A model generated the notes under the pieces. The model made no database searches. It worked only from the letters and a program-made list of their open reading frames with translations, and was not told where the DNA came from. Of a stretch of 55,500 nucleotides of DNA, positions 19,752-53,821 are shown piece after piece. The stretch lies in NCBI RefSeq assembly GCF_003290025.1, contig NZ_QNHG01000002.1:390055-445554 (forward strand), in the 5' to 3' direction. Position 1 is the first letter of the stretch. Each line of letters starts with the position of its first letter. Origin of the DNA: Pseudogemmobacter bohemicus. GTDB lineage: Bacteria > Pseudomonadota > Alphaproteobacteria > Rhodobacterales > Rhodobacteraceae. The position numbers were made by a program, and so were the translations under genes.

Positions 19752-19782
19752 TTGTACCTATAGTTGCCAGAGGTGTCATAGG
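19752..19782 (+). promoter_or_regulatory. MerR-family promoter/operator upstream of the CDF exporter
   Basis: TTGTAC (-35) and CATAGG (-10) are separated by 19 bases holding CTATAGTTGCCAGAG, a slightly imperfect version of the dyad used by ZntR/CadR/PbrR-type MerR activators. The overlong spacer is typical of MerR control. It lies 48 bases before the CDF start. It is one of five such sites in the window and the least symmetric. Confidence 0.7.
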
Positions 19783-19829
19783 ATGATTCTTCAGCAGCCA
19801 ACCCGCTGATGCGGCGCAGGAGAATTAAG

Positions 19830-20765
19830 ATGAGCACCTCCGGATCGGATCACGCGGCCCATGGCCCGGATGACGGCCATGACCACGCCGAGGTCGTGAC
19901 GGCCGACAACGAGAGACGCATCCGCTTTGTCTTCATCTTCACCGCATCTTACGCAGCCATACAAGCGGTGGGCGGCTGGATTTCCGGCTCGCTCGCGCTT
20001 ATCGCGGATTCCGGCCATATGGTGTCAGATGCGGCGGCACTTCTGCTGGCGCTGATCGCCTATCGCGTGGCGCGGCGACCGGCGGATGGCACACGCACCT
20101 ACGGCTTTCACCGGGTGCGGGTGCTGGCGGCGCTGGCCAATGGCGCGTCGCTGCTGCTGCTGGTGGCATGGATCACATGGGAGGCGATCCAGCGTTTCAA
20201 TGCGCCGGTCGAGGTCATGGCCTGGCCGATGCTGATCGTGGCGACCATCGGCCTCCTCGTGAACCTTGGAGGCGTCTGGATCCTGTCGCGCGGGCGCAAG
20301 AGCGACAGCAACCTGCGCGGCGCGATGCTGCATGTGATGGGTGATCTGCTGGGTTCGGTGGGCGCGATTGCTGCCGCCATTGGCATCATGCTGACAGGCT
20401 GGGCGATACTCGACCCGCTCTTGTCGGTGCTGGTCTCGGTTCTGGTGGTGCGCTCGGCCTGGGGGCTGGTGCGCGACTCGTTGCGGGTTCTGTTGCAGGC
20501 GGTGCCGCGCGGCTTCGATGCACGCGTGGCCGAGGCGAAACTGGCAGACGAACTGCCCGAAGTGGCCGAGGCCGGGCATTTCCACGCCTGGACCCTGACG
20601 GATGAAACCGTAGTGGCCACGGTGCATGTGACACCCTCTCCCGGGGCTGATCCGCTGGTGCTGCCCGCCCTGGTTGCCAACTGGCTGAAGGCGCGCCATG
20701 ACATCGACCATGTGACGGTTCAGGTCGACCCGCCCGGTGCGCTCTGGCGTGGACAGGGGCTGTGA
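19830..20765 (+). CDS. Cation diffusion facilitator (Zn/Cd/Co-type exporter)
   Basis: The product is 311 residues with six membrane helices and a His/Asp-rich N-terminus (HAAHGPDDGHDHAE). ADSGHMVSDAAALLLAL provides the first half of the transport-site motif and HVMGDLLGSVG the second. A cytoplasmic C-terminal domain (about 215-300) is present. CDF proteins exchange cytosolic divalent metal for protons. I chose 19830 because AGGAG lies about 8 bases upstream; an ATG at 19809 precedes that site. The gene is closest to the CzcD/ZitB group. The preceding MerR-type promoter implies metal induction. Confidence 0.88.
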   Translation: MSTSGSDHAAHGPDDGHDHAEVVTADNERRIRFVFIFTASYAAIQAVGGWISGSLALIADSGHMVSDAAALLLALIAYRVARRPADGTRTYGFHRVRVLAALANGASLLLLVAWITWEAIQRFNAPVEVMAWPMLIVATIGLLVNLGGVWILSRGRKSDSNLRGAMLHVMGDLLGSVGAIAAAIGIMLTGWAILDPLLSVLVSVLVVRSAWGLVRDSLRVLLQAVPRGFDARVAEAKLADELPEVAEAGHFHAWTLTDETVVATVHVTPSPGADPLVLPALVANWLKARHDIDHVTVQVDPPGALWRGQGL

Positions 20766-20805
20766 TCCCTGACACATCCGTGACCATTGTTCACGCAATC
20801 GGGAT

Positions 20806-20836
20806 TTGAACCTGTAGTGACTACAGGGTGCAGAAG
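20806..20836 (+). promoter_or_regulatory. MerR-family promoter/operator upstream of the zinc-ribbon gene
   Basis: TTGAAC, a 19-base spacer containing CTGTAGTGACTACAG (near-perfect dyad), and CAGAAG as -10. The site lies 44 bases upstream of the gene at 20881, whose ribosome site is GAGGTG. It closely matches the sites at 43334, 44821 and 53821 (minus). Confidence 0.75.
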
Positions 20837-20880: not shown

Positions 20881-21264
20881 ATGGACCCTGTTTTTGCAGC
20901 CGAACCCGCTCGCCGCACCGGCGGCCTGCTCTGTCCGCATTGCCGGGTCGATCTGGTGATGTCTGACCGTCAGGGCATCGAGATCGACTATTGCCCGCAA
21001 TGCCGGGGTGTCTGGCTGGACCGGGGCGAGCTGGACAAGATCATCGAACGCAGCACGGCCGAAGCGCCTGCCCCCCGGCAGGCAGGGCCGCTGCGCGACG
21101 ATCAGCGCGCGCAGGTCCGGAATCAGGGCACCCGGTATCAGGATGATTATGACGACGATCGCGACTACAGGTCGGACAGCCACGACTCGGATCGTGGGCG
21201 CGACCGGCATGGCAAGGACCGGCGCGACCACAGTGGTTCTTTCCTGCGGCGGCTGTTCGACTGA
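20881..21264 (+). CDS. Zinc-ribbon (zf-TFIIB family) protein
   Basis: The product is 127 residues. Two CxxC pairs, CPHC and CPQC, flank a short beta segment, followed by RGVWLDRGELDKI, the signature of the zf-TFIIB domain found in many small bacterial proteins of unknown biochemical role. After residue 65 the protein becomes strongly Asp/Arg-rich (YDDDRDYR, RDRHGKDRRDH) and ends in FLRRLFD. It could be a metal-binding or nucleic-acid-binding protein. Its own MerR-type promoter suggests induction by heavy metal. Confidence 0.82.
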   Translation: MDPVFAAEPARRTGGLLCPHCRVDLVMSDRQGIEIDYCPQCRGVWLDRGELDKIIERSTAEAPAPRQAGPLRDDQRAQVRNQGTRYQDDYDDDRDYRSDSHDSDRGRDRHGKDRRDHSGSFLRRLFD

Positions 21265-22245: not shown

Positions 22246-23490
22246 ATGCCTCGTTCCCAATTCGCTATTCTTGCGCTTGTTGCGCTTGCCACGACAGCCG
22301 CAAATGCGGAAATCCCTGCCACGCGCCCGATGCCCTCGCCCCTTGCCGATATGGCGGCGGACAGCGTGGCCGATGCCGGGAGCAGTATCGCGGAACCCCG
22401 GGCTGCTGCGATGGCAGGGCTCACGGGCGATACAGTGATCGAACATGGTGAATCGCTGGACCGCGTGCTCTCCCGGCTGGGCATCCGTCCTGAGGTTCGG
22501 GCAGAAATCGCGATGGCATTTGAAGATGTCTATGATCTGGGCGACCTGCGCCCGGGCGATGTCCTGAACTGGAAAATCTCACGCGAGGATCCGGGCCGCC
22601 TGGCATCGCTGCGCCTGCAGGTGTCTGGCGGTGTCGAAATCGAGCTGAGTTTTGCCGGCGGTATCGAGGCCAACCGTATCGACCCGACGATGATCACCCG
22701 CGAACGCAACGAGGTGCTGGTGCTCGACGGCACGCTTTATGATGCGCTGCTGGCGCGCAATGCGCCGGGGCGCTTTGCGGTGGACCTGGTCGCGCTGATG
22801 GCGGGTCAGGTCGATTTTCGCCGCGACATCAAAGGCGGCGAGACCTTCGCGCTGGTCTGGCAGGAAGATGCGCTGCCGGACGGGACAATCGCCGGCGAGC
22901 CGCGCCTGTCCTATGCGCGCCTCACAATCGGCGAGAATATATATGAGCTGGTGTCATCCGACCCGGCCAGCCCGATCATCCTGTTCGAGAACGGCACCGC
23001 CGTGCAGCGCAGCGCGCCCCCGATCATGGGCGCCAGGCTCTCTTCCGTTTTTGGCAATCGCAAACATCCCGTGCTGGGCGGACAGCGGATGCATACCGGC
23101 ATAGATTTCGCCGCTCCCATCGGAACGCCGGTGAATGCGACCGGAGCCGGCCGGGTGGTCTTTACCGGCTCCATCCGCGGTTACGGCACCACGGTCGATA
23201 TTGATCATGGCGGCGGGGTCATCACACGCTATGCCCATCTGTCAAAGATAAGCGATGCCCTGCGCAAGGGATCACGCGTAAGCGCGGGGGATCAGATCGG
23301 GGCAGTCGGGGCAACCGGGCTCGTTTCGGGGCCCAACCTGCATTACGAGGTGCGCGTCGACGGCCGCCCCGTCGATCCGATGCAGGATGAGGTGATGCCC
23401 GAGCAGGAAACCGCAAGTCCCGCCGATCTGGCCTTGCTGGAAACCGGGCGGGCCAGAACCGGCTTTGACCAAGCTGATCGCGATGGCTGA
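22246..23490 (+). CDS. Periplasmic M23-family metallopeptidase
   Basis: The product is 414 residues. A Sec signal (about 1-21, ending ANA) leads to a LysM/OapA-like region (55-115, GESLDRVLSRLGI). A central domain precedes the C-terminal LytM domain with FGNRKHPVLGGQRMHTGIDF (zinc ligands His and Asp), TRYAHLS and NLHYEVRVDG. Such enzymes cut peptidoglycan cross-bridges, or act in cell-wall remodelling when the ligands are intact, as here. AAGGA lies upstream. It heads a group with a CAP protein and two L,D-transpeptidases, pointing to envelope remodelling. Confidence 0.87.
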   Translation: MPRSQFAILALVALATTAANAEIPATRPMPSPLADMAADSVADAGSSIAEPRAAAMAGLTGDTVIEHGESLDRVLSRLGIRPEVRAEIAMAFEDVYDLGDLRPGDVLNWKISREDPGRLASLRLQVSGGVEIELSFAGGIEANRIDPTMITRERNEVLVLDGTLYDALLARNAPGRFAVDLVALMAGQVDFRRDIKGGETFALVWQEDALPDGTIAGEPRLSYARLTIGENIYELVSSDPASPIILFENGTAVQRSAPPIMGARLSSVFGNRKHPVLGGQRMHTGIDFAAPIGTPVNATGAGRVVFTGSIRGYGTTVDIDHGGGVITRYAHLSKISDALRKGSRVSAGDQIGAVGATGLVSGPNLHYEVRVDGRPVDPMQDEVMPEQETASPADLALLETGRARTGFDQADRDG

Positions 23491-23547
23491 AACACGCCTG
23501 CCCGGGTCGCGGGTGTTGTCCTGTCAATATGATGCAATGAGTGAGCG

Positions 23548-24090
23548 ATGCCTCTGATACTTCCACGGATCCCGTCTGGCGCCGCGCTTGGCCTGTTGTC
23601 GATGCTGAGCCTTGCCGCCTGTGCCAATTTCAGCCCTGCATCACCGCCACGACTCGATGAGGGCGGCGCGGCAGTCGAGGGTCTGTATCAGGTAACGGCC
23701 GAGAACATTACGCAGATCCGCGCGCGCGCGCTGGATACGCTTAACAATACACGGCAGGATTCGGGGCTCTCTGCCGTGATCTCCGACCCCTATCTGGAGC
23801 AGGCGGCGAACGGTCATTCGCGTTCAATGTCCGACCAGGGGCGTGCCTGGAATTTCGGAGCCGATGGCAGCTCACCGCCGGAACGCGCCCGCCGTGCCGG
23901 CTTTCAGGGAACCGTTCTGGGCGAGCTGGTTTCGGAAACCTATGAGACCGAAGTTCAGGCCATCGCGACATGGATGGGCAACGACCTGGCCCGGAAAACC
24001 CTGCTTGATCCGGCCGCGCGCCGTATCGGTTTCGGCCTGTGGCAGGACATATCGGGCAAGCTTTGGTGGACGCTTGTGGTGGCCGACTGA
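23548..24090 (+). CDS. CAP/SCP-domain lipoprotein
   Basis: The 180-residue product has a lipoprotein signal with lipobox LAAC (Cys26). The CAP domain begins at about residue 55, with LDTLNNTRQDSGL and LEQAANGHSRSMSDQGR, and ends with GFGLWQDISGKLWWTLVVAD. CAP proteins in bacteria are secreted and of unclear biochemical role; several associate with the cell wall. The stop TGA overlaps the start of the next gene (TGATGA), so it is coupled to an L,D-transpeptidase. Confidence 0.78.
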   Translation: MPLILPRIPSGAALGLLSMLSLAACANFSPASPPRLDEGGAAVEGLYQVTAENITQIRARALDTLNNTRQDSGLSAVISDPYLEQAANGHSRSMSDQGRAWNFGADGSSPPERARRAGFQGTVLGELVSETYETEVQAIATWMGNDLARKTLLDPAARRIGFGLWQDISGKLWWTLVVAD

Positions 24091-24689
24091 TGAAAGGAAC
24101 AGCCTTGATCCATACCGTAACCCGTCGGGGGCTTTTTGGCCTCGGAGCTGCGTCCATCGCCATGATTGCCGCACCTGCCGTGCTGCGGGCCCAGGATATT
24201 ACCTTTGTACCGCCTTCCGATGCGAAGCGGCACAACATCGCCAGCTTTCGCGGCCAGCGCTGGCAGGACCATTTTCAGAACCTGCGCAAGGGTGCGATCC
24301 TGTGCGATCTGGAATCGCGCGCCCTGCATTACTGGTCCGAGGACGAGAGCCTCTACCTCATACATCCTTCTTCCGTGCCGATGAGCGAGGAACTGACCCG
24401 CCGCGGCTATACGGAAATCGTCCTGAAGCGGCGCAATCCGACCTGGATCCCGACCCCCAATATGCGAAAGCGTGACCCAAGCCTGCCGCAATCAGTGGGT
24501 CCAGGCCCTAACAATCCGCTGGGCAGTCGCGCTCTGAACCTGAGCTGGCAATATTACCGCATTCATGGCATCGATAAGGTCGAGAAGATCGGCCGGCCCG
24601 CCTCGAACGGATGCGTCGGCATCTATAACGAATATATCGAGCGCCTGTTTGACCTGGTGGAGATCGGAACACAGGTCCGGCTGCTATAA
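24090..24689 (+). CDS. L,D-transpeptidase (YkuD domain), first copy
   Basis: The product is 199 residues. An N-terminal RRGLFGLGAASIAMIAAPA followed by VLRAQ resembles a Tat-type signal. The YkuD domain contains YRIHGI and the catalytic SNGCVGIYN. These enzymes form 3-3 peptidoglycan cross-links or tether lipoproteins. The start overlaps the CAP gene stop, and an earlier in-frame ATG at 24039 lies inside that gene and lacks a signal peptide. The product is related to, but clearly diverged from, the next gene. Confidence 0.87.
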   Translation: MKGTALIHTVTRRGLFGLGAASIAMIAAPAVLRAQDITFVPPSDAKRHNIASFRGQRWQDHFQNLRKGAILCDLESRALHYWSEDESLYLIHPSSVPMSEELTRRGYTEIVLKRRNPTWIPTPNMRKRDPSLPQSVGPGPNNPLGSRALNLSWQYYRIHGIDKVEKIGRPASNGCVGIYNEYIERLFDLVEIGTQVRLL

Positions 24690-24771
24690 TCCTGCCCGTG
24701 CACTAATTCCTTCCCGTGAACTCAGGCGCCTTGCCCCATGGTGCAGGTGGTAATATGAAAACATTCCCTAT

Positions 24772-25452
24772 ATGAGACCCGGAAAAATGCTGACCAGACG
24801 CCATTTTGTCATAACCACCGCCGCGCTTTTCTCACAGCCCCTTGCGCTGCCTGCCTTTGCGAAATCCAGCCCCGGCGAGTCGCAGATGGCGGCCTGGGAC
24901 GCCGAGGTGACGCCAGCGGGCTATGATCCGGCAACATCCAACCCCTGGGGTCTGAACCCGCGATTTCTGCCGCGGCTTGTCGAAGCGAACAGTGGTCTGA
25001 AGCCCGGCGACATACATGTCGATGCTGTTGCCCGATACCTCTATCACATTCAGAATGATGGCATGGCGATGCGCTATGGCGTCGCGATCGGGCGGGGCGA
25101 TCTTTACGAACCCGGCACCTATACGGTGCGTCGCAAGGCCAAATGGCCTCACTGGACGCCAACCGCGAATATGATTGCCCGCGAACCCGAAGTTTACGGA
25201 AAGTTCGCCGACGGGGTGGAGCCAGGTCCGTCAAATGCGCTCGGATCGCGTGCGCTCTATCTCTTTGTCGGTGATCGCGACACCTATCTGCGGATCCACG
25301 GCACGCCTCTGCCGCGCTCGATCGGATCGCGTGCAAGTTCCGGCTGTGTCAGAATGGTGATGGCGCATATCATCGGCCTGTATGAGCAGGTAGAGACCGG
25401 GGTGACAGCGGTGCTCTACCCCGGTGAAGACCGTATTACGGCGCGCAGCTGA
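24772..25452 (+). CDS. L,D-transpeptidase (YkuD domain), second copy
   Basis: The product is 226 residues. The leader RRHFVITTAALFSQPLALP ends near AFA. The YkuD domain has AIGRGDLYEPGTY, LRIHGTPLP and the catalytic SSGCVRM. The start may instead be the ATG at 24787, giving MLTRRHF; neither start has a strong ribosome site. It is the last gene of the cell-wall group, followed by a bidirectional terminator at 25466. Two paralogues side by side suggest different acceptors, for example cross-linking versus protein tethering, but this cannot be decided from sequence. Confidence 0.86.
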   Translation: MRPGKMLTRRHFVITTAALFSQPLALPAFAKSSPGESQMAAWDAEVTPAGYDPATSNPWGLNPRFLPRLVEANSGLKPGDIHVDAVARYLYHIQNDGMAMRYGVAIGRGDLYEPGTYTVRRKAKWPHWTPTANMIAREPEVYGKFADGVEPGPSNALGSRALYLFVGDRDTYLRIHGTPLPRSIGSRASSGCVRMVMAHIIGLYEQVETGVTAVLYPGEDRITARS

Positions 25453-32173: not shown

Positions 32174-32185
32174 GATGACAGGACT

Positions 32186-32202
32186 ATCCCCGGATGGGGG
32201 AT
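32186..32202. promoter_or_regulatory. G-tract palindrome, RcnR/DmeR-type operator 3
   Basis: ATCCCC-GGATG-GGGGAT lies 13 bases before the regulator start and resembles operators 1 and 2. It would allow autoregulation. Confidence 0.65.
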
Positions 32203-43188: not shown

Positions 43189-43333
43189 TGCTGCACTCTA
43201 GCCGTAGGGAGGAATTCGGACAATGCGTCAGGATGACAAAGTTGCCACACCCTGATCCGGCGAATGTTGCCAACAGATTCCGCAGCCTAGCGGAAATGTG
43301 ATCGGGTGTCGCCGCAAAATACGAAAACAGGCC

Positions 43334-43364
43334 TTGAGTCTATAGTTACTACAGGACCCAGCTT
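43334..43364 (+). promoter_or_regulatory. MerR-family promoter/operator upstream of the Mrp subunit C gene
   Basis: TTGAGT, a 19-base spacer with CTATAGTTACTACAG, and CAGCTT as -10. It is one of the five shared sites, 67 bases before the ATG at 43432. Confidence 0.72.
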
Positions 43365-43431
43365 TCCTGTGAGCCTGGTCTTCGCTGCCAACGTCAACGT
43401 GAATCGCGCTCAATCAGAACGGAGCGTCGCG

Positions 43432-43773: not shown

Positions 43774-43855
43774 AATCCGTGGAAAGAGACCGGGCAGGGA
43801 AACCGGTGAAGCATCCGGTGGCTGCTGGCCTGCCACAGTCAGGTGAGGGAACGCG

Positions 43856-44296
43856 ATGCTGACAATTGGCAAGCTCTCGGAAGCCACCGGGGTCAAGGTC
43901 CCGACCATCCGCTATTATGAGCAAATCGCCCTGATGCCAAAGCCCGGGCGCACGGGTGGCAATCAAAGGCTCTATGGGCGCGAGGCGCTGGAGAGGTTGA
44001 GCTTTGTCCGTCATGCGCGCGATCTTGGATTTCCTCTTGAGGCGATACGCGAACTGCTCAGCCTCTCGGACCAGCCTGACCAAACCTGCGATGCTGCGGA
44101 TGCGATTGCGCGCAGGCAATTGGGCGCCGTAAAGGCCAGGATCGTGCGGCTCCTTGCGCTGCAACAAGAGCTGGAGCGCATGCTCGATCACAGCAGAGGT
44201 GGTCTGATTTCAGATTGCCGGGTGATCGAAGTGCTTGGAAATCACACGCTTTGCCGGGAAGAGTGCCGCGCAGGGACTGTCGTGAGTGAACATTAG
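43856..44296 (+). CDS. MerR-family metal-responsive regulator 1 (ZntR/CadR/PbrR type)
   Basis: The product is 146 residues. The winged helix is LTIGKLSEATGVKVPTIRYY, followed by the dimerisation helix (residues about 75-120). Metal-site cysteines are at TCDAADAI and at the C-terminus in SDCRVIEVLGNHTLCREEC, the arrangement of Zn/Cd/Pb sensors (Cys in the helix plus a CxnC loop). It should activate promoters with 19-base spacers, five of which are in the window. It is convergent with regulator 2. Confidence 0.87.
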   Translation: MLTIGKLSEATGVKVPTIRYYEQIALMPKPGRTGGNQRLYGREALERLSFVRHARDLGFPLEAIRELLSLSDQPDQTCDAADAIARRQLGAVKARIVRLLALQQELERMLDHSRGGLISDCRVIEVLGNHTLCREECRAGTVVSEH

Positions 44297-44334
44297 CCCG
44301 GTCGGCCTCGCTGCCTCCCGGGGGCATTCGGATT

Positions 44335-44757
44335 TCAGTTGGGGCCAGCGTTCCGGACCGGAGAAAGCGCGTCAATGATGCGGCAATCTGCAACTGTGCC
44401 ACAGCTGCATTGGGTGAGCATCCGGCTCAGCTCTGCTTGCAACGCTTTGAGATCAGAAAGCTTTTGCTCTACCTCAATGAGATGCTCACGGGTGATCGCA
44501 TCCACAGAATCGCAGGAGCGGAACCGGTCGTCCGACAGGCGCAACAATTCGCGGATCTGATCGAGCGAAAAGCCTAGCGCGCGGGCGCGGCGAATGAAGC
44601 TGAGCCGGTTGAGATGCTCGACCTCATAGGCGCGGTAATTGCCTTCCGTGCGCCCGGGCTCGGGCAAGAGCCCCGATTTTTCATAGAAGCGGATCGTCTC
44701 CACCTTGGTTTCAGTAAGTCGCGACAGGGTGCCAATGGTCAGGCTTTGCGCTTTCAC
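44335..44757 (-). CDS. MerR-family metal-responsive regulator 2
   Basis: The 140-residue product has HTH LTIGTLSRLTETKVETIRFY and the effector region RSCDSVDAITREHL. A C-terminal cysteine cluster CSCGTVADCRIID fits a PbrR/ZntR-type metal pocket. The start appears to be GTG at 44757, eight bases after GGGAG. It is divergent from the HMA/P-type ATPase genes across the MerR site at 44821, the classical arrangement, so it is the best candidate regulator of those genes. Confidence 0.87.
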   Translation of the reverse strand: MKAQSLTIGTLSRLTETKVETIRFYEKSGLLPEPGRTEGNYRAYEVEHLNRLSFIRRARALGFSLDQIRELLRLSDDRFRSCDSVDAITREHLIEVEQKLSDLKALQAELSRMLTQCSCGTVADCRIIDALSPVRNAGPN

Positions 44758-44820
44758 AACAGAATCTCCCGGATGCGGCCTGCAGGGCATTTGCCGCGAT
44801 CTCGCAGTGTATTTTCAGAC

Positions 44821-44851
44821 TTGACCCTATAGTAACTACAGAGATTAGTTT
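44821..44851 (+). promoter_or_regulatory. MerR-family promoter/operator of the HMA-ATPase operon
   Basis: TTGACC, a 19-base spacer with CTATAGTAACTACAG (near-perfect dyad), and TAGTTT. It lies between divergent merR (44757) and the HMA gene (44884), and is the closest of the five to published Pb/Zn/Cd operators of this class. Confidence 0.8.
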
Positions 44852-44883
44852 CGATTCGTCAATTCGACTCCAAGGAGAAAATC

Positions 44884-45096
44884 ATGTCGGAAACCATCCA
44901 GTTCAAGATCGAGGGCATGGATTGCGGCTCTTGCGTCAAGCAGATCGAAGCCGCCGTCGGTGCGGTCGCGGGCGTCGAGACCGTGAAGGTTTCTCTCGCA
45001 GAGAATAATGCAACCGTGTCCTTCGACCCCACCAAAACCAGCAAGGCGGCTGTCATTGAGGTTGTCGAAGACGAAGGGTTTGATGTGCCGGCATGA
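44884..45096 (+). CDS. Heavy-metal-associated (HMA) chaperone
   Basis: The 70-residue ferredoxin-like domain has the metal site GMDCGSC at residues 12-18 and ends DEGFDVPA. It binds soft or divalent metal and passes it to an ATPase. AAGGAG precedes the ATG. The stop overlaps the P-type ATPase start, so the pair is coupled. Confidence 0.88.
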   Translation: MSETIQFKIEGMDCGSCVKQIEAAVGAVAGVETVKVSLAENNATVSFDPTKTSKAAVIEVVEDEGFDVPA

Positions 45097-47165
45097 CGAC
45101 ACTTGAGCTTCCCATCGGGGGAATGGACTGCTCGGCCTGTGCCAAGAAGGTGCAGCGGGCGGTCAGCAAAATGCCGGGCGTGTCGAAGATCGAAGTCCTG
45201 CTGAACGCCGAAAAGGCGGTCATCGAGATCGATCCGAAACAGGTCACGCGTGAGGCCTTGCAGGCCATGATCGAGCGGGTCGGTTTCACCGTCCCGCAGG
45301 TCGAAGAGCCTGATTATGTAAAGCAGGGCAATGACTTCCAGCGCCAGATGTTCATGGTGCTGGGGCTGGTCTTTGGCGTGATCCTGCTTTTGGTCGTGGC
45401 GGGCGAGGGGCTTGGCCTCTTTGACGCCGTGACCGACCGGGTGCCCATGTGGGCCGGCACATTGGTGGTGGTGGCCTTTGGCGCCTCGATCTTCTGGGGC
45501 GTCATCAAATCGGCGATGCGCCTTGAAGTCACCAGCCACACGCTGATGAGCATCGGCGCTGTGGCCGCACTGGTTACCGGGCAATGGGCCACAGGCGCGA
45601 TTGTCATTTTCTTCATGCGCATCGGGGTCTTTGTCGAGCGTTTCACCAGCGAGAAAGCCCGCAAGCTTCTGAAGGAGCTGAACGCTCTGGCGCCCACGAT
45701 GGCGCGGGTGGAGAGGGATGGCGAAGAGGTTGAGATCCCGGTCGAGCAGGTTGTGGTCGGTGACACCATCATCGTCCGCCCGGGCGAGCGGGTGCCGGTC
45801 GATGGCACCGTGATCGACGGGCAGGCGACTTTCGATCAGGCGGCGATCACCGGCGAAAGCATGCCGGTCGAGGCCGAAGCCGGAGACCGCGTCTTTGCCG
45901 CGACCCTGGCCAAGCTTGGCCATGTGCGGCTGCGGGCCGAACGCATCGGGCGCGACACGACCTTTGGCCGCACGGTCAAGCTGGTCGAAGAGGCCGAGGC
46001 CAATCGCGGCGAGATGCAGCTCCTGGCCGACAAGTTCAGCGCCTGGTATCTGCCGGTCGTGATCGTGATTGCGCTCCTGACCTACTATCTCAGCGGCAAT
46101 GTGATGGCGGTGGTCGCGGTTCTGGTGGTGGCGTGTTCGTGCTCGTTCGCTCTGGCCACACCGATTGCCATGATGGCCTCGATCGGGGCGGCGGCGAAAC
46201 GCGGCCTTCTCATCAAGGGCGGGAAATATGTCGAAGCGATCCGGGCCGCAGATGTGGTTCTGGTCGACAAGACCGGCACCCTGACCACGGGCAAGCCGCA
46301 GATCACCGATATCGTCTCGTTCGATGGTCGCAGCCAGGAGGAACTCTTGCAACTCGCCGCCACGGCCGAGCGGCATTCAGAGCACCCTCTGGCCGAGGCT
46401 GTGCGCCTTCATGCCCGCGAACAAGGCGTGCGTGCAGGTGAGCCCGAGCGGTTCGAGGCGGTTCCCGGCAAGGGGATCAAGGCCGTGATCGGTGGCCAGG
46501 CGGTGGATATCGGCAACCGGCGCCTTGTGGCGGTGGATGAAAACCAGCCCGATATCGCGCGGCTTGAATCCGAGGGCAAGACGCTGTTGATCCTTGCGGT
46601 CGATGGCAAACCCGCAGGGATCATTGCGGCGATGGATACGGTCCGGCCCGAAGTGGGAACCGCGATCGAGGAAATCCGCAAGCTGGGCATCACCCGGATC
46701 GAGCTGTTGACGGGTGACAACGCGCGCACGGCCACAGCCATCGCAGGCCCGCTGGGGATCGGTTTTCAGGCCAATCTTCTGCCTGAAGACAAGATCCGTG
46801 TGGTGCGCGAATATCAGGCCAAAGGTCACCGCGTTGTCATGGTGGGCGATGGCGTGAACGATGCGCCGGCGCTGGCGCAGGCCGAGGTGGGCATCGCCAT
46901 GGGCGGTGGTACCGATGTGGCCATGGAAGCGGCGCATATCGTGCTGATGCGTGAAGATTGGGGGCTGGTCGCCGACTGCTTCCGTATCGCGCGGCGCACG
47001 ATGGGTGTGGTGCGGATGAACATCGCCTTCACCGCGCTTTACAACATGGTTGGCCTTACCCTCGCTGCAACTGGGGTCATCCCGCCGGTTGTCGCCGCTG
47101 CAGCGCAGTCGATCCCGGATATTGGCATTCTTGCCAATTCCTCGCGGCTGATCCGGCAGAAGTAA
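45093..47165 (+). CDS. PIB-type metal ATPase with atypical CSC membrane motif
   Basis: The product is 690 residues. An N-terminal HMA domain has GMDCSAC. Membrane helices flank TGESMPV, the phosphorylation site DKTGTLT (Asp392), the HP motif SEHPLAE and GDGVNDAPAL. The ion-selectivity motif in helix 6 is CSC (Cys348, Cys350; ACSCSFALATP) rather than CPC, so the usual proline is a serine. The helix 8 region PPVVAAAAQSIPDIGILANS differs from both the Cu(I) and Zn(II) types. The metal is therefore uncertain. It is co-transcribed with the HMA chaperone under a MerR promoter and followed by a strong terminator. Confidence 0.88.
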   Translation: MTTLELPIGGMDCSACAKKVQRAVSKMPGVSKIEVLLNAEKAVIEIDPKQVTREALQAMIERVGFTVPQVEEPDYVKQGNDFQRQMFMVLGLVFGVILLLVVAGEGLGLFDAVTDRVPMWAGTLVVVAFGASIFWGVIKSAMRLEVTSHTLMSIGAVAALVTGQWATGAIVIFFMRIGVFVERFTSEKARKLLKELNALAPTMARVERDGEEVEIPVEQVVVGDTIIVRPGERVPVDGTVIDGQATFDQAAITGESMPVEAEAGDRVFAATLAKLGHVRLRAERIGRDTTFGRTVKLVEEAEANRGEMQLLADKFSAWYLPVVIVIALLTYYLSGNVMAVVAVLVVACSCSFALATPIAMMASIGAAAKRGLLIKGGKYVEAIRAADVVLVDKTGTLTTGKPQITDIVSFDGRSQEELLQLAATAERHSEHPLAEAVRLHAREQGVRAGEPERFEAVPGKGIKAVIGGQAVDIGNRRLVAVDENQPDIARLESEGKTLLILAVDGKPAGIIAAMDTVRPEVGTAIEEIRKLGITRIELLTGDNARTATAIAGPLGIGFQANLLPEDKIRVVREYQAKGHRVVMVGDGVNDAPALAQAEVGIAMGGGTDVAMEAAHIVLMREDWGLVADCFRIARRTMGVVRMNIAFTALYNMVGLTLAATGVIPPVVAAAAQSIPDIGILANSSRLIRQK

Positions 47166-47166
47166 C

Positions 47167-47199
47167 GCAAAAGGCCCGTGGGAAACCACGGGCCTTTTT
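47167..47199. terminator. Strong rho-independent terminator
   Basis: An AAGGCCCGTGG / CCACGGGCCTT stem with a GAAA loop, followed by TTTTT. It ends the ATPase operon and, in the other direction, the minus-strand SCO operon (last stop at 47219). Confidence 0.9.
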
Positions 47200-47218
47200 C
47201 ACATCGCTTGTGCCGTTA

Positions 47219-47830
47219 TCAGGCGAGGATACGCTTGATTTTCGGGACCGCGAATTGCGGGTCTTCGTGGAAGTCGATGATGCTGGCAAAGCGGCCATCC
47301 GGGTAGAACAGGAAGACACCGGCCGTATGGTTCATGGTGTAATCCCCATCATCGCGCGGAACCTTTTCATAGCGAATACGGAACTCGGCTGCGGTCAGGG
47401 CAATTTCCTCGGGCGAGCCGGTCAGGCCCAGGATCCGCGGATCGAACATGGCGACATACTCGCTCATCACCTCGGGCGTATCGCGCTCGGAATCGACACT
47501 GATCAGCGCAATGGTCAGCTTATCCGCCTCACTTCCCAGCTCCTCAAGCCAGCCCGCGATATTCATCAGCGTGGTGGGGCAGACATCCGGGCACCAGGTG
47601 AAGCCAAAGAACACCAGGGCCGGCCTGCCGACCCAGTCACCCGGACCCACCCTGGCCGAGAGGTGACTGGTCAGCTGCCAGCTCATCGCCGTCAGGGGAA
47701 GGGGCAGATCGGCAGAGGGGGGGGCAGGTGCGACACCAGACCGGCTGCGCCAGGCACCAAGCGCCAGGGTGCCCGCCGCCAGGGCCAGAATGCCCCCCGT
47801 GCCGAGGATCAGCTGGCGTCTTGTCGGCAT
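47219..47830 (-). CDS. SCO1/SenC copper chaperone, copy 1
   Basis: The 203-residue product has an N-terminal membrane anchor (LILGTGGILALAAGTLALGA). The thioredoxin-like fold has the copper site CPDVCP in FFGFTWCPDVCPT and the third ligand His in YTMNHTAGVFLFYPDG. It delivers copper to, or reduces, the CuA/CuB site of respiratory oxidases, or handles envelope thiols. The start overlaps the PCuAC gene end by 22 bases. The degenerate gene at 21829 is a close relative. Confidence 0.9.
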   Translation of the reverse strand: MPTRRQLILGTGGILALAAGTLALGAWRSRSGVAPAPPSADLPLPLTAMSWQLTSHLSARVGPGDWVGRPALVFFGFTWCPDVCPTTLMNIAGWLEELGSEADKLTIALISVDSERDTPEVMSEYVAMFDPRILGLTGSPEEIALTAAEFRIRYEKVPRDDGDYTMNHTAGVFLFYPDGRFASIIDFHEDPQFAVPKIKRILA

Positions 47831-48288
47831 GTGGGCTCCCTCGCGGTAAGCGCCTCAACGGCAACCTCGATTTCAACGGTTCCGGCACGCTCGAAGGTCA
47901 GCGTGGCGGGGAAAGTATCGCCTTTCGCAAGCGCAGCGGTCAGCCCCATCAGCATTCCGTGATACCCGCCGGGGGCAAGCGACACGCTGCCATTCGCGGG
48001 CACAGGGATGGCCGGCGCATGCGGCATGCTGGCGATACCGTCGGTAACGACGGTTTCATGCAGCATCGGCATTTCGGCCGCAGGGGTCGCGATACCCGTC
48101 AGATTGTCGGCCTCGGCGCCGGTATTGGTAACCGTGAAGTAGATGATGCCGGGGCGGGCGTCGCCAATGGTGGCCTTCGACCAGGCCGCGTCGATCACCA
48201 GATCTCCAACGGTCCATTGAGGACAGGATCCGGCGATCGCGGAAGAGGCGATCAGCAAAAATGGCACCGAATACAGAAGGGTCTTCAT
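47809..48288 (-). CDS. PCuAC-type periplasmic copper chaperone
   Basis: The 159-residue protein has signal LLYSVPFLLIASSAIA. The PCuAC fold contains AAEMPMLHETVVTDGIASM, PVPANGSVSLAPGGYHGMLM and GLTAALAKGDTFPATLTFE, giving the H(M)x10Mx21HxM copper(I) site (MLHE...M...YHGMLM). It loads copper into oxidase CuA sites with SCO. It lies between two SCO1 genes and ends unusually in TCRQDAS. Confidence 0.9.
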   Translation of the reverse strand: MKTLLYSVPFLLIASSAIAGSCPQWTVGDLVIDAAWSKATIGDARPGIIYFTVTNTGAEADNLTGIATPAAEMPMLHETVVTDGIASMPHAPAIPVPANGSVSLAPGGYHGMLMGLTAALAKGDTFPATLTFERAGTVEIEVAVEALTAREPTCRQDAS

Positions 48289-48290
48289 CG

Positions 48291-48887
48291 TCACAGCCTT
48301 TCCTGGAGGTCCTGGGTTATTTCTGCCGCCGGAGTTCCATAACCATACTGGCGCAGCCATTCTCCGTCCGGCCCGACCAGATAAAGGGCGGGGCTGTGCG
48401 ACATCGTATAGCCGTCAGGCGCGTTGGGGTCGGCTTCGCGGCTGAAGTGAATGCGAAAGCTCTCGGCGGCGGCTTTGGTTTGCGCCTCGCTGCCTGCAAG
48501 TCCTAGGATCGAGGGATGGAACATCCCGACATATTCCCCAAGCCCCAGTTCAGTATCGCGCACAGGGTCAATGGAAATGAAAATGGGCTGCACCCTGGCG
48601 GCATCGGCACCAAGAGCATCCATCACATCGGCCACTTCGGTCATGGTGGTCGGGCAGACATCCGGACAATTGGTGAACCCAAAGAACACCAGGAGATACT
48701 TCCCGCGGAATTCAGCGCTGGTGCGCTGCTTTCCGTTGGTGTCGGGCAGGTCGAATTCGGGCTGTAACGAGCCGATAACGGCCGGAGCAGAGCTTTGCTG
48801 CCGGCTTTGGAGGTAGAGCGCCCCGGAGGCAATGGCGGCGAGGCCAACAGCGCCCCAAAGGGCGAGGCGGATTTTGCGAAGGTTCAT
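48291..48887 (-). CDS. SCO1/SenC copper chaperone, copy 2
   Basis: The 198-residue product has an N-terminal anchor (LALWGAVGLAAIASGALYL). FFGFTNCPDVCPTTM is the copper site, and YTMSHSPALYLVGPDG contains the His ligand. It differs clearly from copy 1, so the two are not recent duplicates. The gene is coupled to the PCuAC gene, two bases away, and follows dsbA by 32 bases. Confidence 0.9.
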   Translation of the reverse strand: MNLRKIRLALWGAVGLAAIASGALYLQSRQQSSAPAVIGSLQPEFDLPDTNGKQRTSAEFRGKYLLVFFGFTNCPDVCPTTMTEVADVMDALGADAARVQPIFISIDPVRDTELGLGEYVGMFHPSILGLAGSEAQTKAAAESFRIHFSREADPNAPDGYTMSHSPALYLVGPDGEWLRQYGYGTPAAEITQDLQERL

Positions 48888-48919: not shown

Positions 48920-49579
48920 TTACTTGCTGCGCGCAACCGCGTCGCGGACAGTTGCCTGGAGGCTCTCGAAACTGACTTGTTGCAGTTGCTTGCCTTCGAA
49001 GAAGAAGGTTGGGGTCGCGCGCACTCCCAGGGCTTCGATATCCTCAAGATCCTGGCGCAAAATGGCGACGGTGCCCGGGTTTTGCGGCTCAGACGCGCGG
49101 GTTGAAATATCCATCCCAACGGAACCAGCGATCTGCCAGGCGAAATCAATGTTCGGCGCACTGTCGCTGCCCCATTCGGGCTGGCGCTCGAACAGGGCGT
49201 TCAGGACCTGCTCGAACTTGCCCTGGCGCCGGGCGGATTCAAGGATGGCCACAGCCTCGGCAGAGCCCTGATGGAACGGCGTATAGCGCAAGACGATGCG
49301 CAGCTCGGTCGGGAATTCCTTGCGCAGCGCTTCAAGCACCGGGTGGAAGGCCCGGCAGGCCTCACAGGACGGGTCAAAGAACTCAACCAGAGTTACAGCT
49401 GCATCTTTCGGTCCAAGGAAGGGGGCACCGGGGCGCAGCAGGATCTCGTTCAGATCGGGGACGGCTGCAAGGCGGGCTTCAGCCTCATCTGCCTGACGTT
49501 TTTTATTATACCATGTTCCACCGGCAAATACAGCCGCACCCAGGGTGATGGCACCAATGACAAAGCCGCGACGGTTCAT
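48920..49579 (-). CDS. DsbA-family thiol oxidoreductase
   Basis: The 219-residue product has a leader (FVIGAITLGAAVFAGGTWY) then a thioredoxin domain with active site CEAC in FFDPSCEACRAFHPVLEAL. ALGVRATPTFFFEGKQL carries the cis-proline. CEAC is not the classic DsbA CPHC, suggesting a different redox potential, closer to DsbA proteins of metal or oxidase assembly clusters. It lies near dsbB in the same operon. Confidence 0.87.
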   Translation of the reverse strand: MNRRGFVIGAITLGAAVFAGGTWYNKKRQADEAEARLAAVPDLNEILLRPGAPFLGPKDAAVTLVEFFDPSCEACRAFHPVLEALRKEFPTELRIVLRYTPFHQGSAEAVAILESARRQGKFEQVLNALFERQPEWGSDSAPNIDFAWQIAGSVGMDISTRASEPQNPGTVAILRQDLEDIEALGVRATPTFFFEGKQLQQVSFESLQATVRDAVARSK

Positions 49580-49725
49580 GTTGTTTCCTGTGACAAGTGC
49601 GAAGACGCAGTTCTAGTGGTTTTGGCTCGCGTAACCCCTGTAGCCGCTTCAGAGTCAAGAAATGAGTTTTCGACACACGGAACTGTGACCTGGGGCGGCG
49701 GCAGCGATCTGCGGCGGGATTGGCC

Positions 49726-49955: not shown

Positions 49956-50369
49956 TCATACAGAACGTGCCTTCGGGAGCAGCAGCAGTGAAATGGCGGC
50001 AAAGGCTGCGAGCGAAAGGAACGGAATTGGCAGGCCCAGAATGCTCTGTGCAGCGCGGTCTGTGCAGGACGGGCCGTTCGCGGTACAGGGCGCCAGTGGT
50101 TCGGGGATCAGGCCGGTATAGAGACCACTGTGCCACACGGCGATGCCAAACCCGACAAGTGCCAGGGGCAAGGCGTATAGCCGACCGCGCGGGTCGTTTG
50201 ACCAAAGCGCCACCCCCAAAACCACGACAAGCGGGAACATCGCAATGCGCTGATACCAGCAAAGTGTGCAGGGCATCTGGCCCAGAATCTCTCCGATGAA
50301 CAGGGCGGAGAGCGTTGCGGTAAGGGCGATCAGAAAGGCCATCATCTGGCGTGTGGCAATTTCAGGCAT
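49956..50369 (-). CDS. DsbB-family disulfide bond protein
   Basis: The 137-residue product has four helices. CTLC in GQMPCTLCWYQRIAM is the quinone-side CxxC, and PCTANGPSCTD supplies the second Cys pair. It re-oxidises DsbA with quinone. I chose the ATG at 50369 with AAGGAG seven bases upstream. It overlaps lspA by eight bases. Confidence 0.88.
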   Translation of the reverse strand: MPEIATRQMMAFLIALTATLSALFIGEILGQMPCTLCWYQRIAMFPLVVVLGVALWSNDPRGRLYALPLALVGFGIAVWHSGLYTGLIPEPLAPCTANGPSCTDRAAQSILGLPIPFLSLAAFAAISLLLLPKARSV

Positions 50370-50838
50370 GCCCGGTCTCCTTTTTGTGGGAAAGGCCTGC
50401 GAGCAAAATCGCTGCAACGCCCAGGAAAATTGCAATATCGGCGCCGTTGAACGTTGGCCAGTGCCAGTCGCGCCAGTAGAAGTCAAGAAAGTCGGTCACG
50501 GCCCCCTGACGCAACCGGTCGAAGATATTGCCGCTTGAGCCGCCGACGATCAGCGCAAAGCCTGCGGTCTCCCAGGCCCGACCGGCGCGCAGGCCCAGCC
50601 AGGCCAGGCCAAGTGTGATGAGCCCGGTCAGAGCCGCCATGATCAGAGGCGTATCGGCCATCAGATCCGACAGCATGCCAAAACTCGCACCGGTGTTGAA
50701 CCCCAGTGTCAGGTTGAAGCCGGGAAAGATCGGAACCGGCTGGTGAAGATCCAGCGCGTAAAGCGCCGCTGCCTTCGTCGCCTGATCAAGGGCAAACGCG
50801 ACGAGGGCAAGCAAAAGGAAAAGTGTGATTCGAGTCAT
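50362..50838 (-). CDS. lspA: Lipoprotein signal peptidase LspA (PbrC-like)
   Basis: The 158-residue product has four helices. The catalytic aspartates lie in GGSSGNIFDR and FNGADIAIFLG; TLGFNTGASFGML is the third conserved block. LspA cleaves prolipoproteins. Position next to a Pb/Zn/Cd ATPase recalls the pbr operons, where pbrC encodes an LspA homologue. The window also contains metal-island lipoproteins that could be substrates. It is probably an accessory copy in addition to a housekeeping lspA. Confidence 0.92.
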   Translation of the reverse strand: MTRITLFLLLALVAFALDQATKAAALYALDLHQPVPIFPGFNLTLGFNTGASFGMLSDLMADTPLIMAALTGLITLGLAWLGLRAGRAWETAGFALIVGGSSGNIFDRLRQGAVTDFLDFYWRDWHWPTFNGADIAIFLGVAAILLAGLSHKKETGHA

Positions 50839-51464
50839 CAATCTGGCCTCCGAAGCCCAATCCACCGCGGTACGGATTGCAGGTAAGCGGCATAGTGTGG
50901 TCCATGGCGGCGCATCAGGGCACGCTCTTCACTGCGGATTTGCAGATTGGCCGCGATGAGAAACAGGAAAAATCCAAACCATCCGGGCAGGGAAGGGATA
51001 GCCAGCGCCACGCCCAGAAGCAGCAGGCTCTGCCCAAGAAAGGTCGGGTTGCGCGACAGGCGGAAAAGCCCGGTCGTCACCAGATCCCCCGTTGCCGAAT
51101 TGTCTCCGGCCTGGGGAACCCCCACACGCCAGGATGCGCCCATCCGCGATTGCGCGATCAGCGCCAGTGCGGTGCCAAGCGCCGCCAGTGCAAAGCCCGG
51201 AATATCAAGGTCCGGATAGACGGTTTCGCGCCAGAGAGGATCAGCCTTGTGCAGACCAGGAACGGCCAGCCACAGGAGCGGCCCCAGCAGCGCGAGAGCA
51301 AAGCCAAGCCGGAACGCCATGGCTGCCACGCGATCCCAGCCGCGCGCGCGCCTGAACAGCCACACCTGCTGACCCATTGTCATAAGCCGCCATGACCCGA
51401 CCGCGAAGGCCAGAAGATAGAAACAAAGAGCTGCGATTGCGGCCCAGCCGAAGAATGTTGGCAT
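50838..51464 (-). CDS. Isoprenylcysteine carboxyl methyltransferase-like membrane protein
   Basis: The 208-residue product has five to six helices. The C-terminal block GLFRLSRNPTFLGQSLLLLG and RSEERALMRRHGPHYAAYL matches the ICMT/PEMT-type fold, which binds SAM near the RNP and EE-H motifs. Prokaryotic substrates are unknown. An ATG at 51464 is preferred to the in-frame TTG at 51473. It overlaps lspA by one base and lies five bases after the ATPase stop. ICMT-like genes recur beside zinc/cadmium ATPases. Confidence 0.82.
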   Translation of the reverse strand: MPTFFGWAAIAALCFYLLAFAVGSWRLMTMGQQVWLFRRARGWDRVAAMAFRLGFALALLGPLLWLAVPGLHKADPLWRETVYPDLDIPGFALAALGTALALIAQSRMGASWRVGVPQAGDNSATGDLVTTGLFRLSRNPTFLGQSLLLLGVALAIPSLPGWFGFFLFLIAANLQIRSEERALMRRHGPHYAAYLQSVPRWIGLRRPD

Positions 51465-51469
51465 CGCGA

Positions 51470-53740
51470 TCAAGCCTCTCTTGAGGGATCAAAGCGCAAA
51501 AGCCGCAGCGCGTTCAGCGTCACAAACACGGTGGCCCCGGTGTCTGCCAGAATTGCAACCCAGAGCCCGGTCAGTCCCAGAACCGAGGTCACAAGAAACA
51601 CTGCCTTCAACCCCAGAGCCAGTATGACATTCTGCCGGATATTGCCCATTGTCCCACGGGCAAGCCGGATCAGTGCGGGCACGTCGACCACGCGGTCGCG
51701 CAAGATGGCGGCATCAGCGGTTTCAAGCGCCACATCCGTGCCGGAACCCATGGCGACCCCCACACTGGCCTGTTTCAGTGCAGGCGCATCATTGATGCCG
51801 TCCCCTATCATCATCACGCCGCCACCGCCGCTCATGTCGCGGATCACCAATAGCTTGGCCTCGGGCATCATTTCGGCCCGGTAGTCCATCCCCAGCTGCT
51901 CTGCGATGGCCTCGGCGGTGCGGGGATTGTCACCGGTGAGGATGACAGGCGCGATTCCCATAGCCTTGAGCTGGCGCATCGCATCGACCGCATCCGCGCG
52001 CGGCTCGTCGCGCAGGGCGATCAACCCCAGGGGCTGCGCCCGGCGGAAGACAGCAACCACGGTTTTCCCTTCGGATTCCAGCTGGGTTGCACGGTGGATA
52101 TGACCCCCGGCAATGCCGCGCAGCTCGGAGGCATGGCGCGGTGACGAGACCCACGCCCTGTCACCACCGACAAGCGCCTCGACCCCTTTCCCGACGATGG
52201 CGCGGGCCTCAGATGCTGGCAGCGCTTCCACTCCGGCTTCTTCGGCGCGCCGCAGGATCGCCAAAGCAAGCGGGTGCGACGAACCGGTTTCCACCCCGGC
52301 GGCAATGGCCAGAAGATCATTTTCGGTCACATGCGGAGCCGTGACAATGTCGGTGACTTTGGGCTTGCCATGCGTAAGGGTGCCGGTTTTGTCAAAGGCA
52401 ATCCGGCTGACATGGGCGGCAGCCTCGATCACCGCGCCTCCTTTCATCAACAACCCTTTCCGGGCACCGGAGGACAATGCCGAGGCAATTGAGGCCGGAA
52501 CCGAGATGACCAGCGCGCAGGGGCAACCGATCAGCAAAAGTGCAAGACCGCGATAGATCCAGGTGTCCCAGTCCCCACCAAAGGCCAGCGTCGGAACAAA
52601 GATCACCAGAAGCGCCACAATAACAATCGCGGGCATATACCAGCGCGAGAAACGGTCGATGAAGCGTTCTGTCGGTGCGCGCGCCTCCTCGGCCTCTTCG
52701 ACCAGCTGGATGATGCGGCTGATCGTATTGTCAGCGGCGGTCCTGGTCACGTTGATACGCAAGACCGCTTCGGTGTTGATCGAGCCGGCAAAGACATTTT
52801 CGCCCGGCCCCCGCGTCACCGGAATGCTTTCGCCGGTGACCGGGCTTTCATCGATGCCACTGGTGCCCTCGAAGATTTCACCATCGGCGGGGATGCGATC
52901 ACCGGGGCGTACAAAGACGCGCTGCCCGATCTCCAGGCTCGCAGCCGGCACTTCGCGGGTTTTGCCCCCCTCCTCCAGCAGGGCTGTTTTCGGCACCAGA
53001 TTGGCCAGCGCCCGGATGCTGTCGCGTGCCTTGCCGGCGGCCACGCCCTCCAGAACCTCGCCCACCGCAAAGAGGAAGACGACAAGTGCCGCCTCTTCGG
53101 CCGCGCCGATGAACAGGGCACCAATGGCCGCGATGGTCATAAGGCTTTCGATGGTAAAGGGCTGGCCAAGCCGTAAGGCTTCGAAAGCGCGCTTTGCCAC
53201 CGGGGCGACCCCGATGACACAGGCAACGGCGAAGGCCCAATAGCCCCATTCGGTCGATGTCAGCAGCTCGAAAATCCAGGCCAGACCAAGAAGCAGGCCG
53301 GTAAAGATCACCAACTGCCCCTTCCTGGTCTGATACCACGCCTTGCCCCGAGCGGCCGGAGTGCCATGCACATGGCCGGGGCTGCCGTGACCGATATCTG
53401 CGGCAGAATGCGACGGTGTTGCGCCGGCACGATCAGACCCTTCATGGGCGCCAGTGTCCGACTTTGCGGCAGGTGGTTCACCAGGCATTACAAAGGCTTT
53501 CTTGCCCTCTGCCTTTGCGCCCCGCGCCGCAATGCCGAAGCCAAGCCGTTTCACGATGCTTTCGATCTCGGAGGTTTTGGTCGTGCCGGGCACCAGGCTG
53601 AGCGTCAGCTTTTCGGCCATCAAAGCGACCTTCACATCGCTGACACCAGGCAGGTTCTCAACAGCCTTGGTCACCTTCACTGTGCATGAGGCGCAATCCA
53701 TACCGCTGACAGTCCACTCCTGCCGTCTCGCTTCGCTCAT
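51470..53740 (-). CDS. zntA: Zn/Cd/Pb-exporting P1B-type ATPase
   Basis: The product is 756 residues. An HMA domain (SGMDCASC) is followed by a His-containing linker (GHGSPGHVHG), TGESIPVTRGPGENVFAG, helix 6 with CPC in LIGCPCALVISVPAS (about residue 405), phosphorylation site DKTGTLTHG (about 449), SHPLALA, GDGINDAPAL, and the Zn-type helix 8 motif ADTGATVFVTLNALRLL. Together these indicate Zn(II)/Cd(II)/Pb(II) export. The ATG at 53740 follows the MerR-type promoter at 53821; an earlier start at 53776 is less likely. First gene of a nine-gene minus-strand run ending at 47219. Confidence 0.92.
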   Translation of the reverse strand: MSEARRQEWTVSGMDCASCTVKVTKAVENLPGVSDVKVALMAEKLTLSLVPGTTKTSEIESIVKRLGFGIAARGAKAEGKKAFVMPGEPPAAKSDTGAHEGSDRAGATPSHSAADIGHGSPGHVHGTPAARGKAWYQTRKGQLVIFTGLLLGLAWIFELLTSTEWGYWAFAVACVIGVAPVAKRAFEALRLGQPFTIESLMTIAAIGALFIGAAEEAALVVFLFAVGEVLEGVAAGKARDSIRALANLVPKTALLEEGGKTREVPAASLEIGQRVFVRPGDRIPADGEIFEGTSGIDESPVTGESIPVTRGPGENVFAGSINTEAVLRINVTRTAADNTISRIIQLVEEAEEARAPTERFIDRFSRWYMPAIVIVALLVIFVPTLAFGGDWDTWIYRGLALLLIGCPCALVISVPASIASALSSGARKGLLMKGGAVIEAAAHVSRIAFDKTGTLTHGKPKVTDIVTAPHVTENDLLAIAAGVETGSSHPLALAILRRAEEAGVEALPASEARAIVGKGVEALVGGDRAWVSSPRHASELRGIAGGHIHRATQLESEGKTVVAVFRRAQPLGLIALRDEPRADAVDAMRQLKAMGIAPVILTGDNPRTAEAIAEQLGMDYRAEMMPEAKLLVIRDMSGGGGVMMIGDGINDAPALKQASVGVAMGSGTDVALETADAAILRDRVVDVPALIRLARGTMGNIRQNVILALGLKAVFLVTSVLGLTGLWVAILADTGATVFVTLNALRLLRFDPSREA

Positions 53741-53790
53741 CACTGTCTCCGAGCCAGGCAACGCCCGGGTAATCATGTATATGATTCGGA

Positions 53791-53821
53791 CCCTTACAGC
53801 CTGTAGCAGCTATAGGATCAA
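53791..53821 (-). promoter_or_regulatory. MerR-family promoter/operator of the zntA operon
   Basis: On the minus strand TTGATC, a 19-base spacer with CTATAGCTGCTACAG, and TAAGGG. It ends 51 bases before the zntA start and is the last of the five related sites. Confidence 0.78.

Follow-up and report, generated by a model that had tools for sequence, protein, structure and literature searches.

The DNA analysed here, a window of 55,500 nucleotides from Pseudogemmobacter bohemicus (positions 390055-445554 of contig C2 in assembly G000, 5.6 Mb in 16 contigs), carries a group of MerR-type promoters. With a probability of roughly 0.7, these belong to a MerR regulon of the CadR/PbrR-like kind, which has several of its promoters gathered in a single metal-resistance island and a further one elsewhere in the genome, the whole set being activated by a single regulator, here designated MerR2. 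MerR2 would sit on dyads inside over-long (19-base) promoter spacers; binding of a divalent, thiophilic metal ion (Pb, Cd, Zn or Hg) to MerR2 would untwist the spacer and let RNA polymerase start, in keeping with the mechanism and promoter geometry described in PMC3431237 and PMC1526738. It would thereby turn on a divergent HMA/CSC-type ATPase pair, ZntA-LspA, the zinc-ribbon genes, a DsbA-like gene with an SCO run, and mrpC together with a second regulator, MerR1, which would act as a secondary regulator produced from one of MerR2's promoters. The pairing of regulators with sites, the identity of the metals and the resulting transcription are inferred in this scheme. The sites themselves, their spacing, their rarity and their placement are established, and they are as follows.

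20806 to 20836, plus strand: MerR-type promoter before the zinc-ribbon gene, TTGAAC-19-CAGAAG, dyad CTGTAG-N3-CTACAG; 41.4 bits, E 3.7e-6 genome-wide
53791 to 53821, minus strand: MerR-type promoter before zntA, TTGATC-19-TAAGGG; 36.0 bits, E 1.0e-4
44821 to 44851, plus strand: MerR-type promoter between the divergent MerR2 and HMA/ATPase pair, TTGACC-19-TAGTTT; 36.0 bits, E 1.9e-4
43334 to 43364, plus strand: MerR-type promoter before mrpC-MerR1, TTGAGT-19-CAGCTT; 30.5 bits, E 0.004
49628 to 49658, minus strand: MerR-type promoter before the DsbA-like gene, TTGACT-19-TACGCG, absent from the initial annotation; 24.2 bits, E 0.029
19752 to 19782, plus strand: weak MerR-type candidate before the CDF exporter, TTGTAC-19-CATAGG; 16.0 to 19.1 bits
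21592 to 21622, plus strand: weak candidate before a small open reading frame (ORF) and cell-wall genes, TTGAAC-19-TAGGCG, dyad CCTCAGG-TGG-CTTGAGG; 13.5 to 13.7 bits
C1:1621574, on another contig: MerR-type dyad before a second zinc-ribbon gene; E 0.009 (profile model R1)

The spacer is 19 bases at all seven window sites and at the C1 site, within the 19 or 20 expected of a MerR-type promoter, the weak -10 boxes having been placed by assuming this spacing. A dyad lies inside the spacer at the window sites, imperfectly at 19752 and 49658, and at C1 it is flanked by a weak -35 and a good -10 box. The initial annotation had listed 19752, 20806, 43334, 44821 and 53821 (minus) as near-identical promoters. 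Their bases, strands and 19-base spacing are all exact, and their -35 boxes match TTGACA at three to five of six positions; the near-identity holds for all except 19752 (16.0 bits). Judged from their sequences, the other four are clearly CadR/PbrR-type MerR promoters.

The sites were scored with a matrix of 96 distinct foreign sites, derived from 144 dyads at 76 of 80 loci of MerR2 relatives (the best 80 of 473 loci, each spanning at most about 20 kb). Since its source sites had been picked with the consensus of the initial annotation, at up to two mismatches, this matrix is foreign yet not wholly independent; several of the 80 loci are near-identical copies, and counts of loci are therefore not independent of one another. 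After the listed sites and their mirror readings, the next-best place in the window scores -0.9. Elsewhere, 150,902 bases from 48 other loci gave a single high score, 22.0 at locus L085, with -3.1 for its mirror and -3.7 for the next place. Profile model R1, built from 80 foreign sites, was run over the 5.6 Mb genome (150 of 474 candidates scored at the first pass; E-values rough) and returned 11 matches at E values up to 10, representing six dyads, each matched on one strand or on both. All six have E below 0.03: those at 20806, 53821, 44821, 43334 and 49658, which together fall within 1% of the genome, and C1:1621574. Neither 19752 nor 21592 was recovered in this genome-wide search at E 10. 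In plain pattern counts, each paired with a reversed-pattern control, there were four genome matches at no more than one mismatch, all in the window, versus none for the control. The proposal that MerR-type promoters cluster in one metal island is borne out by these four, and a random occurrence at similar density throughout the genome, which would have undone it, is ruled out for the strong sites by the same count and by the location of five of the six dyads.

The two MerR regulators

Two regulator genes lie in the island:

44335 to 44790, minus strand: MerR2, CadR/PbrR-like regulator (Cys93, 128, 130, 136); best match TIGR02047, 124.8 bits, cut-off 151.45
43856 to 44296, plus strand: MerR1, similar to regulators that adjoin zntA in relatives; best match TIGR02047, 99.3 bits, below the cut-off of 151.45

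The family search places both in the CadR/ZntR group, as the initial annotation had supposed in naming two ZntR/CadR-type proteins. Both score under the TIGR02047 cut-off, and for this reason we describe them as working like CadR or PbrR and do not file them as either. The alignment shows Cys kept in MerR2 at all three ligand positions (Cys93, 128 and 136), which we take to be those of the 79/114/123 type. MerR1 has Ser113 at the second of these and so lacks the full set of three; in an alignment of 31 rows, two of which are the window protein itself, this position is Cys in 28 of the 29 other orthologue rows and His in one. MerR2 is divergent from site 44821, and among its relatives an opposite-strand site lies between 150 bases before and 60 bases after the match start in 63 of the 80. 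On another contig of the same genome (C5, 320,875 bases) a MerR gene of one and the same score occurs at 44469, 139708 and 260802, and a P1B ATPase at 34353, 129592 and 250686; the copies are about 95 and 121 kb apart, so that either a segment is repeated or the assembly has produced the copies.

Genes behind the sites

The predicted targets and their neighbours are:

44884 to 45096, plus strand: HMA-domain metallochaperone
45093 to 47165, plus strand: P1B-type ATPase with CSC motif (VVACSCSFALATP)
51470 to 53776, minus strand: ZntA-type ATPase; best match NF008262, 853 bits, below the cut-off of 1005
50838 to 51473, minus strand: PEMT/ICMT-like membrane methyltransferase
50362 to 50865, minus strand: LspA, signal peptidase II
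48920 to 49579, minus strand: DsbA-like thiol oxidoreductase
47219 to 48887, minus strand: SCO1 - PCu(A)C - SCO1 run, downstream of the DsbA-like gene
20881 to 21264, plus strand: TFIIB-type zinc-ribbon protein, PF13453
C1:1621702-1622043: second zinc-ribbon paralogue, with its own dyad at C1:1621574
43432 to 43773, plus strand: orphan MrpC (Na+/H+ antiporter subunit C), NF006573, 178 bits
19833 to 20765, plus strand: CDF exporter, ZitB-like, behind weak site 19752
22246 to 25452, plus strand: M23 peptidase, CAP-domain protein and two YkuD L,D-transpeptidases

The membrane metal site of the ATPase in the divergent pair (45093 to 47165) reads CSC, not CPC. We take this pump to be of P1B-7 type, a class presumably defined by CSC replacing CPC, a definition that literature searches did not confirm. 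The HMA-ATPase pair recurs behind the same operator in L226, L228 and L231, and in four genomes an ATPase with a CSC motif goes together with an operator of CadR/PbrR type.

The second pump, called ZntA-type because it scores below the NF008262 cut-off, is led by site 53821 (minus) and followed in order by the PEMT/ICMT-like protein and LspA; the same three-gene order after a site is found in L104, L105 and L120. The initial annotation had placed a single zntA-led run under this site. The site before zntA stands, and the run probably splits in two, its second part being under the separate site at 49658 (minus). A comparable adjustment concerns the cell-wall group that had been assigned to site 20806: this site lies directly before the zinc-ribbon gene, and the group, less securely attached, has its own weak candidate at 21592.

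Among 29 foreign CDF loci, six (L166, L171, L180, L181, L189, L191) are preceded by a correctly oriented site of more than 20 bits, orientation being read from coordinates; two have a site of 8-9 bits and 21 have none. The closest CDF relative (L345, on contig C15 of genome G485; 78-81%) sits, without a MerR site, on a contig with some ORFs that resemble conjugation genes by eye.

The zinc-ribbon family was examined in the same way. A strict-pattern check of 29 foreign loci gave no sites; a re-check with the matrix gave one, at L085, leaving 28 of the 29 without a site at 8 bits or more, and because the matrix recovered L085 the earlier negative was due in part to limited sensitivity. P1B or CDF genes stand within about 1.5 kb on either side of the gene at 3 of 29 loci of zinc-ribbon relatives, versus 0 of 29 control loci chosen by MrpC, which is too few for a firm link between zinc ribbons and metal pumps.

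As for MrpC, subunit C alone of the Mrp antiporter is recognised at 43432-43773, with no complete subunit operon around it. A copy 82% identical lies elsewhere in the genome in an mrp-like operon (C2:1007000-1014500), which was recognised by the order and sizes of its ORFs and not through a family search. Over 43201-44000, the stretch of DNA similar to that copy is 43412-43758 only. A plasmid search with 43200-47300 gave one match, of 63 bases, in Gemmobacter fulvus. MrpC and, nearly, the zinc ribbon are so far private to this genome as members of such an island.

The same window holds an ArsR-type helix-turn-helix fused to a rhodanese domain (34590-35273, minus strand), a CsoR/RcnR-type metal-sensitive repressor in the same island (31904-32224, minus) and an ORF of the phage-integrase family (12171-12773, minus; 200 amino acids), a possible trace of island movement.

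Alternative readings

Several observations weigh against a single regulon under MerR2, and they are given here with the alternatives to which they lend support. It is possible, if on balance doubtful, that two regulons interleave, MerR2 serving the HMA/ATPase pair, zntA, zinc-ribbon and DsbA sites, and MerR1 serving mrpC-MerR1, the CDF exporter, the cell-wall group and the zinc-ribbon gene on C1. MerR1-like proteins (at least 60% identical) stand no more than 1.5 kb upstream of a site at 37 of 106 loci of relatives, 24 of these 37 also having ZntA downstream, and the site consensus at MerR1-like loci is TTGAAG-CTATAG-N3-CTAGAG. With MerR2-type and MerR1-type matrices, both built from sites caught with one pattern, the five stronger window sites all score higher as MerR2 type, at 39.2/14.6, 31.2/21.7, 34.8/33.2, 27.2/23.1 and 16.7/4.1; 44821 and 43334 barely separate the two types. 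The other three sites lean towards the MerR1 type: 28.3 vs 22.8 for C1, 16.2 vs 13.5 for 19752 and 11.3 vs 7.5 for 21592. Yet the mrpC site, which MerR1 would have to serve, itself scores higher as MerR2 type, the score differences at 44821 and 43334 are small, and the MerR1 of this genome lacks the second ligand Cys that nearly all its orthologues have.

A second possibility, which we regard as improbable, is that the pump promoters alone work, and that the sites before the zinc-ribbon, MrpC and DsbA genes merely remain from gene capture or rearrangement and do not respond to metals. The 80 loci of MerR2 relatives showed no zinc-ribbon and no MrpC gene up to 1.5 kb behind a site, the foreign zinc-ribbon loci are nearly all without a site, as described above, and MrpC may be passenger cargo. 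However, the zinc-ribbon site at 20806 is the best site in the genome, and the zinc-ribbon gene on C1 has a site of its own, the best alignment between the start regions of the two paralogues being confined to coding sequence. The order site, zinc ribbon, CDF is also seen in another genome (G464, loci L085/L171). DsbA lies behind such sites in 10 of the 80 loci, six of the ten being near-identical copies. The DsbA-like gene and the SCO run, moreover, may not form one transcript.

Further points concern the sites themselves. The -10 boxes of the five sites in the initial annotation are identical to TATAAT at only two or three of six positions, and in G485 the closest CDF relative has no place scoring 5 bits or above over 12 kb. 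When the pattern is loosened, the matches are five versus two for the reversed control at two mismatches and 20 versus 46 at three; the bare 15-mer at two mismatches gives 13 versus 278, and across 13 genomes of the genus the control total of 28 exceeds the 16 matches at two mismatches. The weaker sites are thus unsupported by plain counts, and the sites at 49658, 19752 and C1 rest on the matrix and the model instead. The reversed control is possibly inflated, as it is without CTAG-like words, which are rare in bacteria. Three of the 15-mer matches (C1:1011419, C2:1051393 and C2:1394551) were dropped, having no -35 box and being taken by eye as coding, as was a 21-mer, TTGGGGTGATAGCAGCTACAG, found among the three-mismatch matches at five places (twice on C1, once each on C2, C3 and C8) and probably a mobile repeat. 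That all the sites are ordinary AT-rich promoter-like words that arose by chance is hardly credible, even with 19752 and 21592 below the reach of model R1 and the control ahead at three mismatches, given the concentration of five of the six best dyads in 1% of the genome, the absence of any place at 12 bits (and a single one at 10) in 6 Mb of simulated sequence scored with the foreign-site matrix, and the fact that genes of these same kinds are preceded by such sites in relatives; chance is excluded for 20806, 43334, 44821 and 53821 and may still account for 19752 and 21592.

A regulon under MerR2 remains our preferred reading, and a more elaborate form of it can be put forward as a speculation, somewhat unlikely as it stands. 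A MerR2-type sensor may have built a trans-acting regulon by seizing zntA from MerR1, which, deprived of one ligand Cys, would now be a metal-induced second layer, and by recruiting both zinc-ribbon paralogues from two contigs, and it may drive a CSC-type (P1B-7) pump that exports Pb, Cd, Zn or Hg.

Related islands and known systems

On the sequence evidence, the MerR regulon island is real, and related bacteria have islands like it. Among 390 genomes sampled from the order (all of one family), 79 carry one or more sites at no more than one mismatch. The window genome has four such sites, and so does G385, in which two of the four are copies of a sequence that was found to have no MerR or target gene adjoining it. 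Within the genus, 8 of 13 genomes, the present one included, have a site at no more than two mismatches, the level at which the control total exceeds the matches. In the 80 loci of MerR2 relatives the pattern gave 159 matches versus none for the reversed control; 36 loci have at least two dyads and 21 at least three. A P1B ATPase gene follows in sense, at no more than 1.5 kb, after 60 of the 144 dyads, a CDF exporter after 17, a DsbA after 11 and an LspA after three; 51 dyads have none of the reference proteins after them. Ten downstream proteins chosen by hand were identified with Pfam as DsbB, DsbD-type, SCO1, redoxin, MerT, FTR1, TonB receptor, LspA, DUF930 and one without a match; automatic picking took the longest ORF, sometimes in a wrong frame, and its unnamed clusters were left unused.

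The breadth of the regulon, including its envelope enzymes, had been considered unusual in the initial annotation. This view is not supported by the counts of dyads per locus, nor by the pump, DsbA/DsbB, SCO, LspA, MerT, FTR1 and TonB receptor genes found after sites in relatives, and published work already places a CDF gene under ZntR and predicted signal peptidases among the pbr and cad genes (PMC11580412, PMC3431237). Related bacteria often share this architecture, and the island is therefore a good example and not an oddity.

In Cupriavidus metallidurans, according to PMC11580412, zntA, cdfX and zntR are under ZntR, and the transcript of cadA also carries the gene of CadC, a predicted signal peptidase. 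That regulon resembles the present one in having one MerR regulator with several separate promoters, a P1B ATPase and a CDF exporter among the targets (here predicted). Unlike it, the present set has five or more promoters, most of them clustered in a single island, and includes genes for thiol-redox, zinc-ribbon and MrpC proteins; its regulator scores nearer to CadR-PbrR than to ZntR. In the sections of PMC3431237 that describe the pbr operon, PbrR is given the ligands C79, C114 and C123 and footprinted on PpbrA (TTGACT-19-TTAAAT), and the operon includes PbrC, a predicted signal peptidase. The pbr and cad operons share with the window the 19-base spacer, the TTGACT -35 box (in PpbrA) and an ATPase accompanied by a predicted signal peptidase, but each is described as one divergent operon, whereas here the set is spread over several promoters. 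Dyads of the class CTATAG/CTAGAG are a further common trait. Closest are the islands around the MerR2 relatives themselves (L224-L303, mostly Alphaproteobacteria), which have a divergent regulator, the same operator, an ATPase or CDF exporter, DsbA/DsbB, SCO and LspA, and often two to five dyads; they differ in the zinc-ribbon and MrpC genes, which were not found within 1.5 kb after a site.

More generally, PMC1526738 gives 19-20 bases for MerR-type spacers, unites CadR and PbrR in one branch and states that MerR metal regulons usually comprise few genes per genome, and PMC5387054 mentions several ZntR-like MerR proteins in Paracoccus denitrificans. Word searches of open-licence papers found no dsbA joined with CadR, and a many-promoter MerR regulon is not announced in the titles or abstract openings of the papers that matched. 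The substrate of P1B-7 ATPases is listed as unknown in Table 4 of PMC7558416, and in PMC4932525 and PMC7558416 these enzymes are said not to have been biochemically examined. The pump of the window is like them in its CSC motif, and it stands under a CadR/PbrR-type operator.

To judge from the counts, islands with several promoters are common around MerR2-type regulators, mostly in Alphaproteobacteria. Such islands would tie metal pumps to periplasmic thiol and copper-handling enzymes, and the zinc-ribbon family becomes a candidate for a metal-stress protein. The occurrence of a CSC-type ATPase under a CadR/PbrR-type operator would, in addition, offer a handle on the substrate of the P1B-7 pumps.

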